From Bacteroidota bacterium (GTDB taxonomy: Bacteria; Bacteroidota; Bacteroidia; AKYH767-A; JAHEYN01), in assembly GCA_023251555.1 (NCBI GenBank), contig JAHEYN010000002.1:1-64000 (forward strand): DNA of 64,000 bases, in the 5' to 3' direction. The notes under the pieces were generated by a model. The model worked only from the letters and a program-made list of their open reading frames with translations, was not told the DNA's origin and did no database searches. Both the position numbers and the translations under genes were made by a program. Below are positions 13,552 to 24,878 of this stretch, piece after piece (positions within the stretch are counted from its first letter, which is position 1; the number at the start of each line of letters is the position of its first letter).

Positions 13552-13572
13552 CCCTGCTCTTCTCATTTATTG

Positions 13573-13700
13573 CTTATCCAGAAAGGTTGAGGGACTGCGC
13601 CCTGAGAAACCTTGACAACCCTGTAAACAGCCCTTGCTGCTTATAGAAGGTGCCACATCCTGTCCGCGGGACGGCTCTTATGCCGCCGTGGAAAGATAAG
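13573..13700 (+). promoter_or_regulatory. SAM-I (S-box) riboswitch upstream of metH
   Basis: The closing P1 helix pairs CTTATC (13573-13578) with GATAAG (13695-13700). Between them are the S-box hallmarks: AGAAAGGTTGAGGGA with the kink-turn side, CTGCGCCCTGAGAAACC, the CTTGACAACCC segment, and a GGTGCCA-type junction followed by a GTCC(GCGG)GGAC hairpin before the 3' P1 strand. The RNA senses S-adenosylmethionine. With the terminator just after it, high SAM should stop transcription of metH. I read this from conserved bases, not from a covariance model. Confidence 0.9.
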
Positions 13701-13722
13701 ACGGAACTTCCGAGAGAAAAAG

Positions 13723-13764
13723 AAAAATCTCTTCTGGCAAAAAACGCAGGAGAGATTTTTTTTT
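13723..13764 (+). terminator. riboswitch-associated intrinsic terminator before metH
   Basis: A 14-bp stem (13723-13736 with 13747-13760, one G-U pair) with a 10-base loop is followed by a continuous run of nine T from 13756. It ends only 12 bases before the metH ATG. An AGAGA at 13713-13717 could pair with the 5' side TCTCT of the terminator and may act in the anti-terminator, a weak inference. Confidence 0.85.
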
Positions 13765-13776
13765 GTACATAGATAA

Positions 13777-16700
13777 ATGTCTGATGAAATGACCGATATC
13801 CACAAAATCCTTGAACAACGTGTGCTTGTGATTGATGGTGCCATGGGCACCATGATACAGCAATATAAACTTTCGGAAAAAGATTACCGGGGAGAAAGAT
13901 TTAAGGATCATGGATCTGATCTCAAAGGCAATAATGACTTGCTTTGCCTTACACAACCTTCTATCATTAAAGATATCCACCTCGCCTACCTTGGGGCCGG
14001 GGCTGATATTATTGAAACAAATACCTTTAATGCCCAGCGTATTTCCCTTGCAGACTATGGAATGCAATCCCTTGCCGGGGAGCTGAATGAAGCTGCCGCA
14101 AAAATTGCCCGCGCTGCGGTTGATGAATTCCTCAAACGCAACCCCGGCAAGGGCCCCAGGTATGTGGCCGGAGCTGTTGGCCCAACCAACAAAACTGCAT
14201 CCCTCTCTCCCGATGTGAATGATCCCGGCTTCCGTGCCGTTACTTTTGACGAGCTTGCAGCAGCCTATTCGGAGCAGGTACTCGGCCTGGTAAGGGGAGG
14301 AGCGGACATTCTGCTCATAGAAACAATCTTTGACACTCTGAATGCAAAAGCCGCTCTCTTTGCCATACAGAATATTTTTGAGGAAAAAGGAATTACCCTT
14401 CCCGTCATGATTTCAGGTACTATTACCGATGCCAGCGGTCGTACGCTCTCAGGTCAGACCGTTGAGGCCTTCCTGAATTCAGTCAGCCATGTGAACCTCC
14501 TGAGTATTGGTCTGAATTGTGCTCTCGGGGCCCAACAGATGAGGCCCTTTCTCGAAGAGCTTTCTGAAAAGGCTCCCTTTTTCGTGAGTGCATACCCTAA
14601 TGCAGGCCTCCCCAACCAGTTCGGGGAATACGATGAAACGCCGGAAACCATGTCACACCAGATCTGCGATTTCCTTGACAGCAACTTCGTGAATATTGTA
14701 GGAGGATGCTGCGGAACTACTCCGGAGCACATACGCCATATCGCACAGCATGCAGCAAAAGCAACTCCGAGGAAACTTCCGCAGGGGTCTCCTTACCTCC
14801 GCCTCAGCGGACTTGAGCCGGTAACCCTTCGCCCGGACTCCAACTTTATGAATGTGGGAGAACGAACCAATGTGACCGGGTCTAAAAAATTTGCCCGCCT
14901 CATCATGGAAAACAAATACGAAGAAGCGCTCGCTGTTGCACGTGACCAGGTCGAAGGCGGAGCACAGGTAATAGATATTAACATGGACGAAGGTATGCTG
15001 GATGCCATAGCTGCCATGACGAAATACCTGAACCTTGCCGGGGCGGAACCCGATATCGCGAGGGTCCCCGTTATGATAGACTCTTCCAAGTTCAGCGTTA
15101 TTGAGGCCGGGCTCAAATGCCTGCAGGGAAAGGCAATTGTAAACTCCATATCCCTCAAGGAAGGAGAACAGGCTTTTATAAATCAGGCAAAGACAATTAA
15201 AAAATACGGGGCGGCAATAGTAGTGATGGCTTTTGACGAACAGGGACAGGCAGACTCCCTTGAGAGAAGAATTGAGATTTGTACACGGGCGTATAAAATA
15301 CTTACAGAGCAAGTTAAATTCCCCCCCCAGGATATCATTTTTGACCCGAATATTTTTCCCGTGGCTACAGGAATGGAAGAGCACCGCAAAAATGCAGTTA
15401 ACTATTTTGGGGCGGCAAAATGGATAAAAGAGAATCTCCCTTATGCCAAAGTGAGCGGGGGGGTTAGCAACGTCTCTTTTTCTTTCAGGGGAAACGATGC
15501 GGTCCGTGAAGCCATTCATTCCGCATTCCTCTACCATGGCGTAAAATCCGGAATGGATATGGGAATTGTGAACCCCGCACAGTTACAGGTATATGATGAG
15601 ATTGCCCCGGAGTTGCTGGAAATGGTCGAAGATGTATTGCTCGACCGCAGGGATGATGCTACCGAAAGACTGATTCTTTACGCAGAGAAAGTGAAAGGCG
15701 GCGGAAAACAGAAGCAGGAAAAAGATCTTGAATGGCGTAAAGACTCTGTTGAGAAACGTCTTGCTCATGCACTCGTGAAAGGTGTCGTGGATTATATTGA
15801 GGAAGATCTTGAAGAAGCCCGCACAAAATATTCCCTTGCCCTCCACCTCATTGAAGGCCCTCTCATGGATGGAATGAATATCGTTGGAGACCTGTTCGGG
15901 AGCGGGAAAATGTTCCTTCCCCAAGTGGTCAAAAGCGCAAGAGTGATGAAAAAAGCGGTTGCCTATCTCACCCCTTATCTTGAAGAGGAAAAAAGATCCC
16001 GTCTTGCACAGGGAATCAAAGGGAAAAGCTCTGCGGGGAAAATATTGCTCGCAACGGTTAAGGGAGATGTGCATGATATCGGGAAAAATATTGTAGGGGT
16101 AGTCCTTGGGTGCAATAACTACGAGGTGCTTGACCTCGGGGTGATGGTTCCATGTGAGAAAATCCTTGAAGCCGCAAAAAAAGAAAATGTGGATATTATA
16201 GGGTTAAGCGGACTGATTACCCCATCCCTCGATGAAATGGTGCATGTGGCGAAAGAGATGGAGCGCCAGGGTTTTGATCTTCCCCTGCTTATTGGAGGAG
16301 CAACAACATCTAAGGTTCATACGGCAGTGAAAATAGATCCGAATTACAAACATCCCGTGATCCATGTAAATGATGCTTCCCGCTCAGTCCCCGTGATAGG
16401 GAGTCTGGTGTCCGGCTCGCTCAGGAAAGGCTTTGTGGAAAAAATCTCTGAGGAGTATGATAAAATCAGGGAAAGCAATAAGAATCTCCATGCTGCCGGT
16501 AAGTTTATTTCTCTTGCTGAAGCAAGATCTAACAAGCTTCCCTGCGACTGGGCTGCTTATATCCCTACGCCTCCTTCTTTTATCGGGAACAGGAAGTTTG
16601 AAGGTTATCCTCTCGGGGAAATTGCGGATTATATTGACTGGACTCCGCTCTTCCATAGCTGGGAGATGAAGGGAGTTTACCCGAAAATTCTGCAGGATCC

Positions 16701-17481
16701 GGTCAGGGGTGAAGAAGCAAAAAAACTGTTTCATGATGCACAGGAGATGCTGGAGAAGATTGTTTCCCAAAAGTGGCTTACCGCAAACGCTGTTGTGGGA
16801 TTTTATCCGGCGGCCTCTTCCGGGGGCGATGACATTAAGATTTATACAGATGAAAAAAGAAATATTGTTAAAACAACCCTGCACACCCTCAGGCAGCAAA
16901 CAGCTAAACCGCCCGGGCAGCATAATCTTGCTCTTGCCGATTTTATAACTCCTGAGAATTCGGGAATCAAAGATTATATCGGAGGCTTTGCTGTTACCGC
17001 CGGCTTTGGCATTGAGCCCTGGGTAGAAAAATTTGAAAGAGATCACGACGACTATTCTGCCATCATGCTGAAAGCCCTTGCCGACAGGCTTGCCGAGGCT
17101 TTTGCCGAGCTGATGCACCTCAGGGTCAGGAAAGAGCTTTGGGGGTATGCAAAAGATGAAAATCTTTCGCCGGAACAACTGATAAGCGAAGAATACCAGG
17201 GTATCCGCCCTGCACAGGGATACCCTGCCTGCCCCGACCATACAGAAAAGGAACTGCAGTTTAAACTTTTTGAAGTGGAGAAAAACACAGGGATCCGCCT
17301 TACTGAAAGTTTTGCAATGCTTCCCGCCGCCTCAGTAAGCGGACTTTATTTTTCTCACCCCCGATCGCAGTACTTCGGACTCGGGAAAATTGTGAAAGAC
17401 CAGGTGGAAAATTATGCCGGAAGAAAAGGTATGAGCTTAAAGGAAATGGAAAAATGGCTGGCCCCGGTACTGGGGTATTGA
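13777..17481 (+). CDS. metH: cobalamin-dependent methionine synthase
   Basis: MetH transfers a methyl group from 5-methyltetrahydrofolate through cobalamin to homocysteine. The full-length 1234-residue enzyme has all four modules. The homocysteine domain (about 1-330) has zinc ligands in LNCALG (Cys248) and GGCCGTTP (Cys311/312). The folate domain (about 345-625) begins [16 protein letters not shown]. The cap and B12 domains (about 650-890) have the cobalt-coordinating His766 in DVHDIG, followed by the SGLI motif. The reactivation domain (about 915-1230) has [15 protein letters not shown] for SAM binding. It is controlled by the SAM riboswitch and terminator immediately upstream, and the start codon lies 12 bases after the terminator T-run. 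It needs B12, which links it to the cobalamin riboswitch gene nearby. Confidence 0.97.
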
Positions 17482-22394: not shown

Positions 22395-22424
22395 ATAAAT
22401 CTTTCTGAAAAAGATTTATCTTTG
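22395..22424 (+). terminator. AT-rich hairpin after PorP/SprF overlapping a -7 box
   Basis: A perfect 10-bp stem (22395-22404 with 22410-22419) and a five-base loop lie just after the stop codon. The 3' arm runs into TATCTTTG (22417-22424), which matches TAnnTTTG and could start the riboswitch transcript. A terminator and a promoter seem to share bases. Confidence 0.45.
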
Positions 22425-22432
22425 ATCTTGAA

Positions 22433-22600
22433 ATTCGGTCCCGGTAAAATATACCGGGTTAAAAGGGAAACAGGTGTGAATCCTGTGCATTTCCCGATGC
22501 TGTAAGTTCCAGCAAACTTTTTGATCTCTGAAAGCCACTGCCCCTTCTGAGGGGATGGGAAGGCATCAAAAAGGGAACAAGTCAGAAGACCTGCCGGGTT
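22433..22600 (+). promoter_or_regulatory. cobalamin riboswitch
   Basis: The sequence carries the B12-riboswitch order of conserved elements: TTCGGTCCCGG...CCGGGTTAAAAGGGAA, then GGTGTGAATCCTGTGC, CCCGATGCTGTAAG, and the B12 box GTCAGAAGACCTGCC (22581-22595). It should bind adenosyl- or other cobalamins and repress the downstream gene. A short stem (22638-22643 with 22651-22656) followed by T6 at 22660-22665 may be its expression platform. Confidence 0.92.
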
Positions 22601-22724
22601 TTGAATAAGGTTCGCAGCTTTCGGAGAAAAAGCCAGGAATAGATTCCCCGTCTATTATGTTTTTTCCCGGCCTGTGATTATGAATATCGCTTGTCCATTA
22701 TTTATTTATTTAATACATTAAACT

Positions 22725-24008
22725 ATGAAAACAACTACAAAAATCGGCCGGGGAATCCGGAAAAACATGCTGAAGTTTTTATTAATACCTGTGCTGACAA
22801 CCTGTGTTTATGCGCAAAACCAGTTTGAACTGAGGCAGGTAATCGTTTTGAATGAGGGGGCATTCGGGGGCCCCGCTACAGTCGGCAGTTACGACCCTGC
22901 GGCAAAAACATATGTTAACTTCGATACCATCCCCGCCCGTTTTGCAACCGATGTCATTATCTCCGGCAACTGCATATATGTGGCCGCTGACACCCTTCTC
23001 ATAAAATATAATCTTATTACGAAACAGAGGCTTGCTGTACAGACAGTAAAAGGAATACGGGAGCTGGCTTCCTGGAATAACCAGGTGCTTATTACGAGGG
23101 CAGAAATTACACCACTTCCTTCCTATTTCCAGGTCTATGATGCTGCCACCCTGAACTTTCTTTATGAACTCCCTGGTCTGAGTGGAAAGGCGTCAGAGGT
23201 GAAGGTGCTTGGAGACACTGCTTATGTTGCGGTGAATGATTGGGGTGCCATGGGAAAGCTTGCTGTGGTTGACCTTCAGAACCAGGTACTGAACCGCGAG
23301 ATAGACCTTGGCGCAGATGGCCTGAATCCGGAAGCCGTGCGCGTGGACGGAAACCGGATTTATACTGTGAACTCCCTCAACTGGACAAACAGTTCCGTTA
23401 CGCGGTACGAGGCTTCCACTTCACTTTTCCAGAATATAAAGCTTAATACCCCTTCCAGTTGCAGTGCTTCAACGCTTTATTCCCCTCTGCATAATATTTA
23501 TTTTCAGGTAAGCGGGGAGGATAAACTTGGGGTTTTCAATGCAGGAACGCTTAATCTTATTGATACACTTTACATTAATAAGAGTATTTATGGTATCGGG
23601 ACGGATTCGATCAATGGTAATATATACACCGGGGTGACGGATTACTCAAGCTATGGGGAAGTATTTGTTTATGATTTTTATGGCATGCTTAAGGATTCTT
23701 TCAGCGTTGGCATCTCCCCCGGAACCTTTGCTTTTGACGTGATAGATGTGACCGGGATGACCAGGCAGAAAGCAGAAAGCAGCCTCGCCGTGTACCCTAA
23801 TCCTTCAGGAAATGAACTTCACATCAGCAGCAGCGGAGAGGCGATCCATAATATCAGGCTTTGTGATATCACAGGCAGGGTGCTGCAGCAGTATGATTTA
23901 TGGAGTGCCTCAAATACGCTCCATATGGATCATGTGCAGCCGGGAATATACCTGTTGAAGATAGGTGTTGATAATGGAGTAATCACGAAAAAGATAGTCC
24001 GGGATTAA
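22725..24008 (+). CDS. secreted YncE/DUF5074-like beta-propeller, BtuG-like, with T9SS sorting domain
   Basis: The 427-residue protein has a signal peptide (the second Met, residue 15, begins the hydrophobic core; cleavage near VYAQN, about 31). The beta-propeller region (about 40-345) opens with VIVLNEGAFGGPATVGSYDP, the N-terminal pattern of DUF5074/BtuG-type propellers. Short blades include DVIISGNCIYVAADTLL and PEAVRVDGNRIYTVN. The end (YPNPSGNELHIS, DITGRVLQQ, GIYLLKIGVDNG) is a T9SS type A sorting domain. It is preceded by a cobalamin riboswitch, so it is B12-regulated. BtuG in Bacteroides is a lipoprotein that captures cobalamin for BtuB; here the same job is inferred, but with T9SS sorting and with no btuB adjacent. 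Confidence 0.85.
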   Translation: MKTTTKIGRGIRKNMLKFLLIPVLTTCVYAQNQFELRQVIVLNEGAFGGPATVGSYDPAAKTYVNFDTIPARFATDVIISGNCIYVAADTLLIKYNLITKQRLAVQTVKGIRELASWNNQVLITRAEITPLPSYFQVYDAATLNFLYELPGLSGKASEVKVLGDTAYVAVNDWGAMGKLAVVDLQNQVLNREIDLGADGLNPEAVRVDGNRIYTVNSLNWTNSSVTRYEASTSLFQNIKLNTPSSCSASTLYSPLHNIYFQVSGEDKLGVFNAGTLNLIDTLYINKSIYGIGTDSINGNIYTGVTDYSSYGEVFVYDFYGMLKDSFSVGISPGTFAFDVIDVTGMTRQKAESSLAVYPNPSGNELHISSSGEAIHNIRLCDITGRVLQQYDLWSASNTLHMDHVQPGIYLLKIGVDNGVITKKIVRD

Positions 24009-24011
24009 CAA

Positions 24012-24878
24012 TCAGGGTCCCCGCTTCTCCCGTTTGAAAATAGCGTAAAGCAAGCCCCCAAAAACAGCGGAAGATAGCATTGTCAGCCTCCACTCGTTTT
24101 CTCCCGCACCTATATTGTCCAGGTTTGCTCGGAGGATTCCGTGGCTGTTCATATAGGAAATGATAATGGCGCTCCCGTTATTGACAAAATGTGCAGTAAC
24201 GGGAAGCCATATCGAATTACTCCACAGGAAAAGATATCCAAGCATTGCCCCGAGGAGCATACGCGGAATGAAACCGAAAAACTGGAAATGCAGGGCGCTG
24301 AATATGACAGCGGCAAGCCAGACTCCGGCATGCCTGTTTCGCATCCACCCGGAAAACAGGCGCTGCATCACTCCGCGGCACATGAACTCTTCTCCTATGG
24401 CCGGAATTACTGCAATCATGAGGAGGTTCACAAGCAGTGCAGAGCTCGAATCCATCTTCAGGAAGGCTTCTGTCAGTACAGCAGCATCGTTTTCTTTCTG
24501 CCTCATCCAGGTTTCAATGCCAGACAGGGCGGAAGGCAGGTGCATTTTCCCGTTCATGTCTGCCAGTAAATTTATAAGAGGGGTAGCCGCTAATACTGCA
24601 AAGGCTGTATAAATAAAGGACTCCGGGCGGGCAGGGCTCCGGAATTTCAGGTAGCTCTTTACATCCCCTGAAACATAGTAGGCGAAAAAAACAGGAGGAA
24701 TTACAAATAGTAAGATCGAAAGGATAATTTGTCCTGCTTTCAAAACGATCAGCGCGTATGGATCATTTAGCATATTATTGATGCCGGATCCGGCGGGCAG
24801 GGCATTAAGGATTATATAAATCCCGATCAGGCCGAAAAAAAATACAGAGGCCCCTTTTTCCCTTTGGGGCAAAGTCAT
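24012..24878 (-). CDS. CPBP (CAAX/Abi) family intramembrane metalloprotease
   Basis: A 288-residue membrane protein with about seven helices and the CPBP motifs: EEFMCRGVMQRLF (EExxxR, motif 1), ALHFQFFGFIPRM (FxxxH-like motif 2) and HFVNNGSA (HxxxN, motif 3). These residues build the glutamate/histidine active site in the inner membrane. The open frame extends to 25439, but that part runs antisense through dusB and has no protein-like character. The ATG at 24878 gives the normal length and lies about 30 bases from a minus-strand TACTTTTG box (24909-24916). It converges with the B12-regulated propeller gene (three bases apart). Substrate unknown. Confidence 0.88.
   Translation of the reverse strand: MTLPQREKGASVFFFGLIGIYIILNALPAGSGINNMLNDPYALIVLKAGQIILSILLFVIPPVFFAYYVSGDVKSYLKFRSPARPESFIYTAFAVLAATPLINLLADMNGKMHLPSALSGIETWMRQKENDAAVLTEAFLKMDSSSALLVNLLMIAVIPAIGEEFMCRGVMQRLFSGWMRNRHAGVWLAAVIFSALHFQFFGFIPRMLLGAMLGYLFLWSNSIWLPVTAHFVNNGSAIIISYMNSHGILRANLDNIGAGENEWRLTMLSSAVFGGLLYAIFKREKRGP

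Follow-up and report, generated by a model that had tools for sequence, protein, structure and literature searches.

The known BtuG proteins are lipoproteins that serve as lids of BtuB. The closest described relatives of the system reported here are BtuG1-3 of Bacteroides thetaiotaomicron (8BAI, 8BMX, 8OKV, 3DSM), which are controlled by a cobalamin riboswitch and encoded together with btuB. They combine a seven-bladed fold and an NEG...YDP start with a lipobox and a lipoprotein export signal, and an N-terminal lipid anchor and linker tether them to BtuB. In BtuG2, Trp194, Trp272 and Tyr316 narrow the cavity for the upper ligand and Tyr335 contacts adenosylcobalamin (PMC10404256). BtuH, BtuJ, BtuK and other surface B12 binders of Bacteroides also capture corrinoids as riboswitch-regulated accessories to uptake; they are lipoproteins of other folds and are used together with BtuB-BtuG (PMC8941943, PMC12751083). 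Gram-negative bacteria are taken to require BtuB for the entry of B12, and BtuM has been described as a solitary ECF S-component for B12 (PMC6072759).

The window analyzed here is a stretch of 64,000 nucleotides from a Bacteroidota bacterium (assembly GCA_023251555.1, contig JAHEYN010000002.1, positions 1 to 64,000). It contains a riboswitch-controlled gene with a BtuG-like propeller and a T9SS sorting domain, and we estimate a probability of roughly 70% that this gene encodes a surface corrinoid-capture protein whose B12 uptake route uses neither canonical BtuB nor BtuCD. A literature search, which most subscription papers lay outside and which does not prove novelty, found no description of T9SS in combination with BtuG, BtuB or cobalamin riboswitches.

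Using cmscan, the RF00174 model was matched over positions 1-189 of 189 to nucleotides 22419-22612 of the plus strand, with a score of 109.9 bits (E 1.2e-26) at a gathering score of 31.5 bits. This confirms the complete cobalamin riboswitch that had been proposed in a first-pass annotation, and a genome-wide search (2.84 Mb, 97% complete, not closed) detected this one cobalamin riboswitch only. The full-length aptamer is followed by a leader of 112 nt (22613-22724, plus strand), the presumed expression platform. RNA folding of 22600-22740 gave a weak signal (z = -1.75), and the plus strand of this leader contained no terminator-like site. The open reading frame at 22725-24008 (plus strand) encodes 427 amino acids. 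Its downstream neighbor is convergent, a minus-strand gene with its end at 24012, and the riboswitch unit therefore consists of a single gene, as the annotation had also stated. The first ATG results in an unusually long n-region (22725-22767) and, judging by the relatives, translation may in fact begin at Met15 (22767).

The protein begins with a signal peptide (22725-22814, plus strand) that lacks a lipobox and is likely cut by SPase I after Ala30 (VYA^QNQ). A30-Q31 is nearly invariant among the aligned relatives, and a lipobox is absent from the window protein and from all 30 aligned relatives. Next comes a seven-bladed BtuG-type propeller of approximately residues 34-341 (22824-23747, plus strand), which is supported by AlphaFold2, Foldseek and residue mapping. 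The C-terminus is formed by a T9SS type A sorting domain (residues 356-425; 23790-23999, plus strand), recognized by both PF18962 (44.6 bits, cut-off 27) and TIGR04183 (52.3 bits, cut-off 23). The PF18962 tail is present in 29 of 31 aligned clade members. Both the leader without lipobox and the sorting domain had been read from the letters alone, and both readings hold. The window also encodes PorP/SprF and a CHU_C cargo, which are T9SS-related domains. Signal peptide and tail together suggest that the protein is exported by the T9SS and fixed on the surface.

At the sequence level, phmmer searches against BtuG chains gave modest E-values between 4e-5 and 3e-4, and a profile of 31 clade members matched BtuG chains end to end; designed kelch propellers were also caught through the repeat motif. 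An AlphaFold2 model built with the clade relatives reached a pLDDT of 87.6. Comparison with the PDB using Foldseek returned BtuG chains for all of the top 13 matches (TMt 0.76-0.81, rmsd 2.5-3.0; among them 8OKV, 3DSM, 8BMX, 8BAI, 8BMZ, 8BMY, 8BN0 and 8P97), whereas non-BtuG propellers fitted the model more poorly. The first-pass annotation had called the protein a BtuG-like propeller and had named the lack of a structural match to BtuG as its own refutation; sequence search, whole-chain profile and fold all agree with the annotation, at a structural identity to BtuG of about 18%. The window protein also shares the NEG...YDP start of the known BtuGs. Its DUF5074 assignment, in contrast, was not upheld, as PF16819 (DUF5074 in Pfam) matches the lipoprotein relatives and not the window protein. 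The LVIVD repeat is the sole Pfam match in the propeller, which, like the modest phmmer values, would also be expected of a generic surface beta-propeller that came under riboswitch control by chance and binds no corrinoid. Considering the ranking of the structural matches and the riboswitch linkage, which is kept across a deep clade, we regard this explanation as very improbable.

Corrinoid binding by the propeller is suggested by the modelled fold together with the residues of the pocket. In a pairwise alignment, Trp194, Tyr316 and Tyr335 of BtuG2 correspond to W173, Y289 and Y307 of the window protein, so that three of the four upper-ligand aromatics are kept, while the counterpart of Trp272 is a gap and its loop is lost. 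Y289 and Y/F307 are conserved across the clade; at position 173 the multiple alignment places the gaps differently, with an aromatic residue nearby in most rows. For this analysis the T9SS clade was aligned separately (A6); a joint MAFFT alignment with the lipoprotein BtuGs (A3) put the first blades out of register. Beside the lost Trp272 loop lies a clade-conserved cysteine, C246 (23460-23462), which is a candidate cobalt-ligand position.

The same architecture was found in 39 genomes, nine from the window's order (its own included) and 30 further Bacteroidota genomes; most genomes in the comparison are MAGs. The 30 were drawn from 46 loci: eight of these repeat genomes of the order, and the final eight (L172-L179), each either a flavobacterial T9SS form or a lipoprotein form, stand outside the 30. 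In 26 of the further genomes the riboswitch is located 57-382 bp upstream of the gene and is the sole cobalamin riboswitch of the genome, and in the other four none was found with RF00174. Within the order, the riboswitch is directly upstream in five of the nine genomes and there is none in the other four. Overall, the sole cobalamin riboswitch serves the T9SS-BtuG gene in 31 of 31 riboswitch-bearing clade genomes, and eight of the 39 have none. Because riboswitch control, the lost lipobox and the T9SS tail are all conserved across this clade of 39 genomes, their combination is a lineage trait and not an accident.

Phylogenetic analysis placed the T9SS clade apart from the lipoprotein BtuGs with a support of 100/99. 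A T9SS-tailed copy from Patiriisocius marinus (L174) is nested among the lipoprotein BtuGs beside its own paralogue, and the sorting domain was therefore gained at least twice. L172 and L173 join the T9SS clade on long branches, and this join may be false. In a genome of 1.5 Mb, where no btuB was found, a lipoprotein BtuG-like gene stands downstream of a T9SS-clade BtuG whose tail is shortened (L166:9001-11373).

Two types of BtuB-like TBDT occur under the riboswitch in the order: the f5 type, often beside a lipoprotein btuG (profile A1), and the f2 type, which is followed by DUF6580 (profile A2). One of the two was present in 30 of the 33 genomes of the order without the T9SS clade (22 of the f5 and eight of the f2 type) and in none of the nine with it (p = 5e-7, assuming independent genomes and not corrected for kinship). 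The first-pass annotation had noted that btuB is not adjacent; in fact, neither type was detected anywhere in the window genome. A canonical btuB could have been missed due to incomplete assemblies or the limits of the profiles, given that MAGs were used and that the window genome is not closed. In the same A1 and A2 searches, however, intact BtuB copies of the order reached approximately 410 to 1150 bits. With a wider profile, canonical BtuB was found in none of the 39 clade genomes, where the best score was 142 bits compared to 217-736 bits in genomes with a btuB-btuG operon, which makes an overlooked copy highly unlikely. Intermediate full-length scores with the BtuB profile (up to 160 bits) were also reached by TBDTs of G025 and of G072, a genome with a true BtuB, and such TBDTs were therefore taken as a paralogous family. 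Since lipid anchor and btuB partner are both missing, we do not class the window protein as a BtuG lipoprotein; on present evidence, it would work like BtuG minus these two elements.

A closer look at the gene neighborhoods revealed that the T9SS gene adjoins a glycosyltransferase gene (motif WGLGHATRC) in G017, which belongs to the window's own family, and in G014, G015 and G027. The slot beside this gene is occupied by T9SS types in L038, L041, L043 and L045 and by lipoprotein types in L046-L051; in sister genera it holds a riboswitch with btuB and lipoprotein btuG, or a riboswitch with lipoprotein btuG alone. As both types share the slot, the arrangement suggests that the anchor type switched at one ancestral locus. 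In L047, L049, L050 and L051, lipoprotein btuG stands alone under a cobalamin riboswitch and btuB is under a second riboswitch elsewhere. Family f2 shows the order riboswitch-TBDT-DUF6580 in eight genomes and riboswitch-T9SS BtuG-DUF6580 in two. The TBDT in the former (L101-L108, 725-748 aa) is weakly like BtuB and represents the second BtuB type. The window locus has neither WGLGHATRC nor DUF6580 neighbors, and its DUF6580 gene lies at G000:C18:15178-15675. Three observations go beyond the first-pass annotation: sister genera carry lipoprotein BtuGs at this locus, the gene is linked to DUF6580 in relatives, and no BtuB was found.

T9SS-tailed BtuG-like propellers were also detected in BtuB operons (L172, L173, L174). 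They share the propeller, the type A sorting domain and a place beside B12 uptake genes with the clade described here, but differ in being accompanied by btuB, lipoprotein btuG and another T9SS-tailed protein, and the L174 copy arose separately within the lipoprotein clade. In Acidiluteibacter ferrifornacis (L172) and in L173, the T9SS-tailed gene is the first of an operon with btuB and lipoprotein btuG. The btuB-btuG operons also encode a conserved protein of 321-336 aa, whose body gave no Pfam or PDB match and which is T9SS-tailed in L052 and L172. Those of L052, L116 and L117 encode a DUF4465 protein (a B12-binding family) as well, again T9SS-tailed in L052. These additional genes are located at L052:10675-12653 (minus strand), L116:6362-8340, L117:6455-8433, L172:10203-11168, L173:10292-11263 and L174:10458-11432. 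T9SS export of B12 proteins may be a wider theme.

The neighborhoods also bear on the idea that the window protein binds corrinoid outside any transporter complex, either as a released, haemophore-like scavenger or as a surface B12 store. T9SS cargo may remain anchored or be released, the window transcription unit contains no TBDT, and the protein lacks the N-terminal lipid anchor and the linker by which BtuG is tethered to BtuB, all of which fit such a role. The operons of L172 and L173, on the other hand, point to uptake, and in L039 and L042 the T9SS BtuG gene is followed by the one for the membrane protein DUF6580. We therefore consider a scavenger or store rather unlikely and favor surface capture as part of an uptake route.

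The outer-membrane partner in this route was sought by comparing every Plug-domain gene detected in a set of eight genomes. Two candidates were rejected: L032/L186, a weak BtuB-profile match in the window genome, lacks orthologues in the other T9SS-BtuG genomes and has neighbors without a B12 link, and the TBDT upstream of the riboswitch (L156-L158, L160, L162) has orthologues in the BtuB genomes G032 and G036 and is thus no specific partner. By distribution, the best TBDT candidate is L184 (G000:C30, 812 aa), which had reciprocal best hits in five of the five other T9SS-BtuG genomes compared, whereas G036 lacks a full-length relative and G032 has one at 30% only. It illustrates a sub-case of the preferred explanation, namely that the propeller is the lid of a BtuB, highly divergent or not orthologous, whose gene lies elsewhere and has no riboswitch. 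TBDTs of this kind are often metal-related, the family is multi-copy with several paralogues in G043 and G044, the neighbors have no visible B12 link, and the control genomes were two. L184 is accordingly a lead only, and a lid function on such a transporter appears possible at best, with the odds against it.

At the inner membrane, BtuC (PF01032) was found in none of the eight genomes tested, including two that bear BtuB, while 13 of 14 controls were positive. DUF6580 was found in 36 of 42 genomes, in most of them as a single copy, and a full-text literature search returned no paper on it. Its model (pLDDT 93) had ECF S-components as the five best Foldseek matches, including PanT, FolT, 4HUQ chain S and ThiT (PDB 6zg3, 4z7f, 4huq, 3rlb), with TMt values of 0.42-0.69 and modest E-values of 0.035-0.23. 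The DUF6580 alignment contained no invariant cysteine. Regarding possible uses of the cargo, MetH domains were found in a window gene and QueG domains were found as well; both enzymes depend on cobalamin. The metH gene is preceded by a SAM riboswitch (60.4 bits; window 13571-17481) and lies about 5 kb from the cobalamin-riboswitch gene. In the role proposed below, DUF6580 would resemble BtuM in being a small, ECF-S-like protein of the inner membrane in genomes that lack BtuC, although the two belong to different families and BtuB is described as present in genomes with BtuM (PMC6072759).

Taken together, these results are consistent with the following sequence of events. At high cellular cobalamin the riboswitch would repress the gene, which is the known behavior of this RNA family. 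When expressed, the protein would leave the cell via Sec and then the T9SS, and the sorting domain, instead of a lipid, would fix it on the cell surface, where B12 or another corrinoid would bind in the BtuG-type pocket of the propeller. The corrinoid would then be handed to an outer-membrane transporter other than canonical BtuB and may enter the cytoplasm via DUF6580, as suggested by the ECF S-component-like fold and the shared riboswitch operon in relatives. Finally, the cargo would feed cobalamin-dependent MetH and probably QueG. In its most specific form, the T9SS-exported BtuG-fold protein would be the sole outer-membrane component dedicated to B12 by a riboswitch. Its partners would be a transporter new to B12 and DUF6580, the latter as a new solitary S-component B12 importer in the inner membrane, and neither BtuB nor BtuCD would take part. 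This complete version is put forward tentatively, and we would sooner expect one of its parts to fail than all of them to hold.

In 39 genomes, the B12-riboswitch regulon, where present, consists of one BtuG-fold protein on another secretion route, and no BtuB was found. B12 capture would thereby be separated from its usual transporter, DUF6580 gains a suggested function, and the outer-membrane carrier of B12 in these bacteria becomes a testable question.
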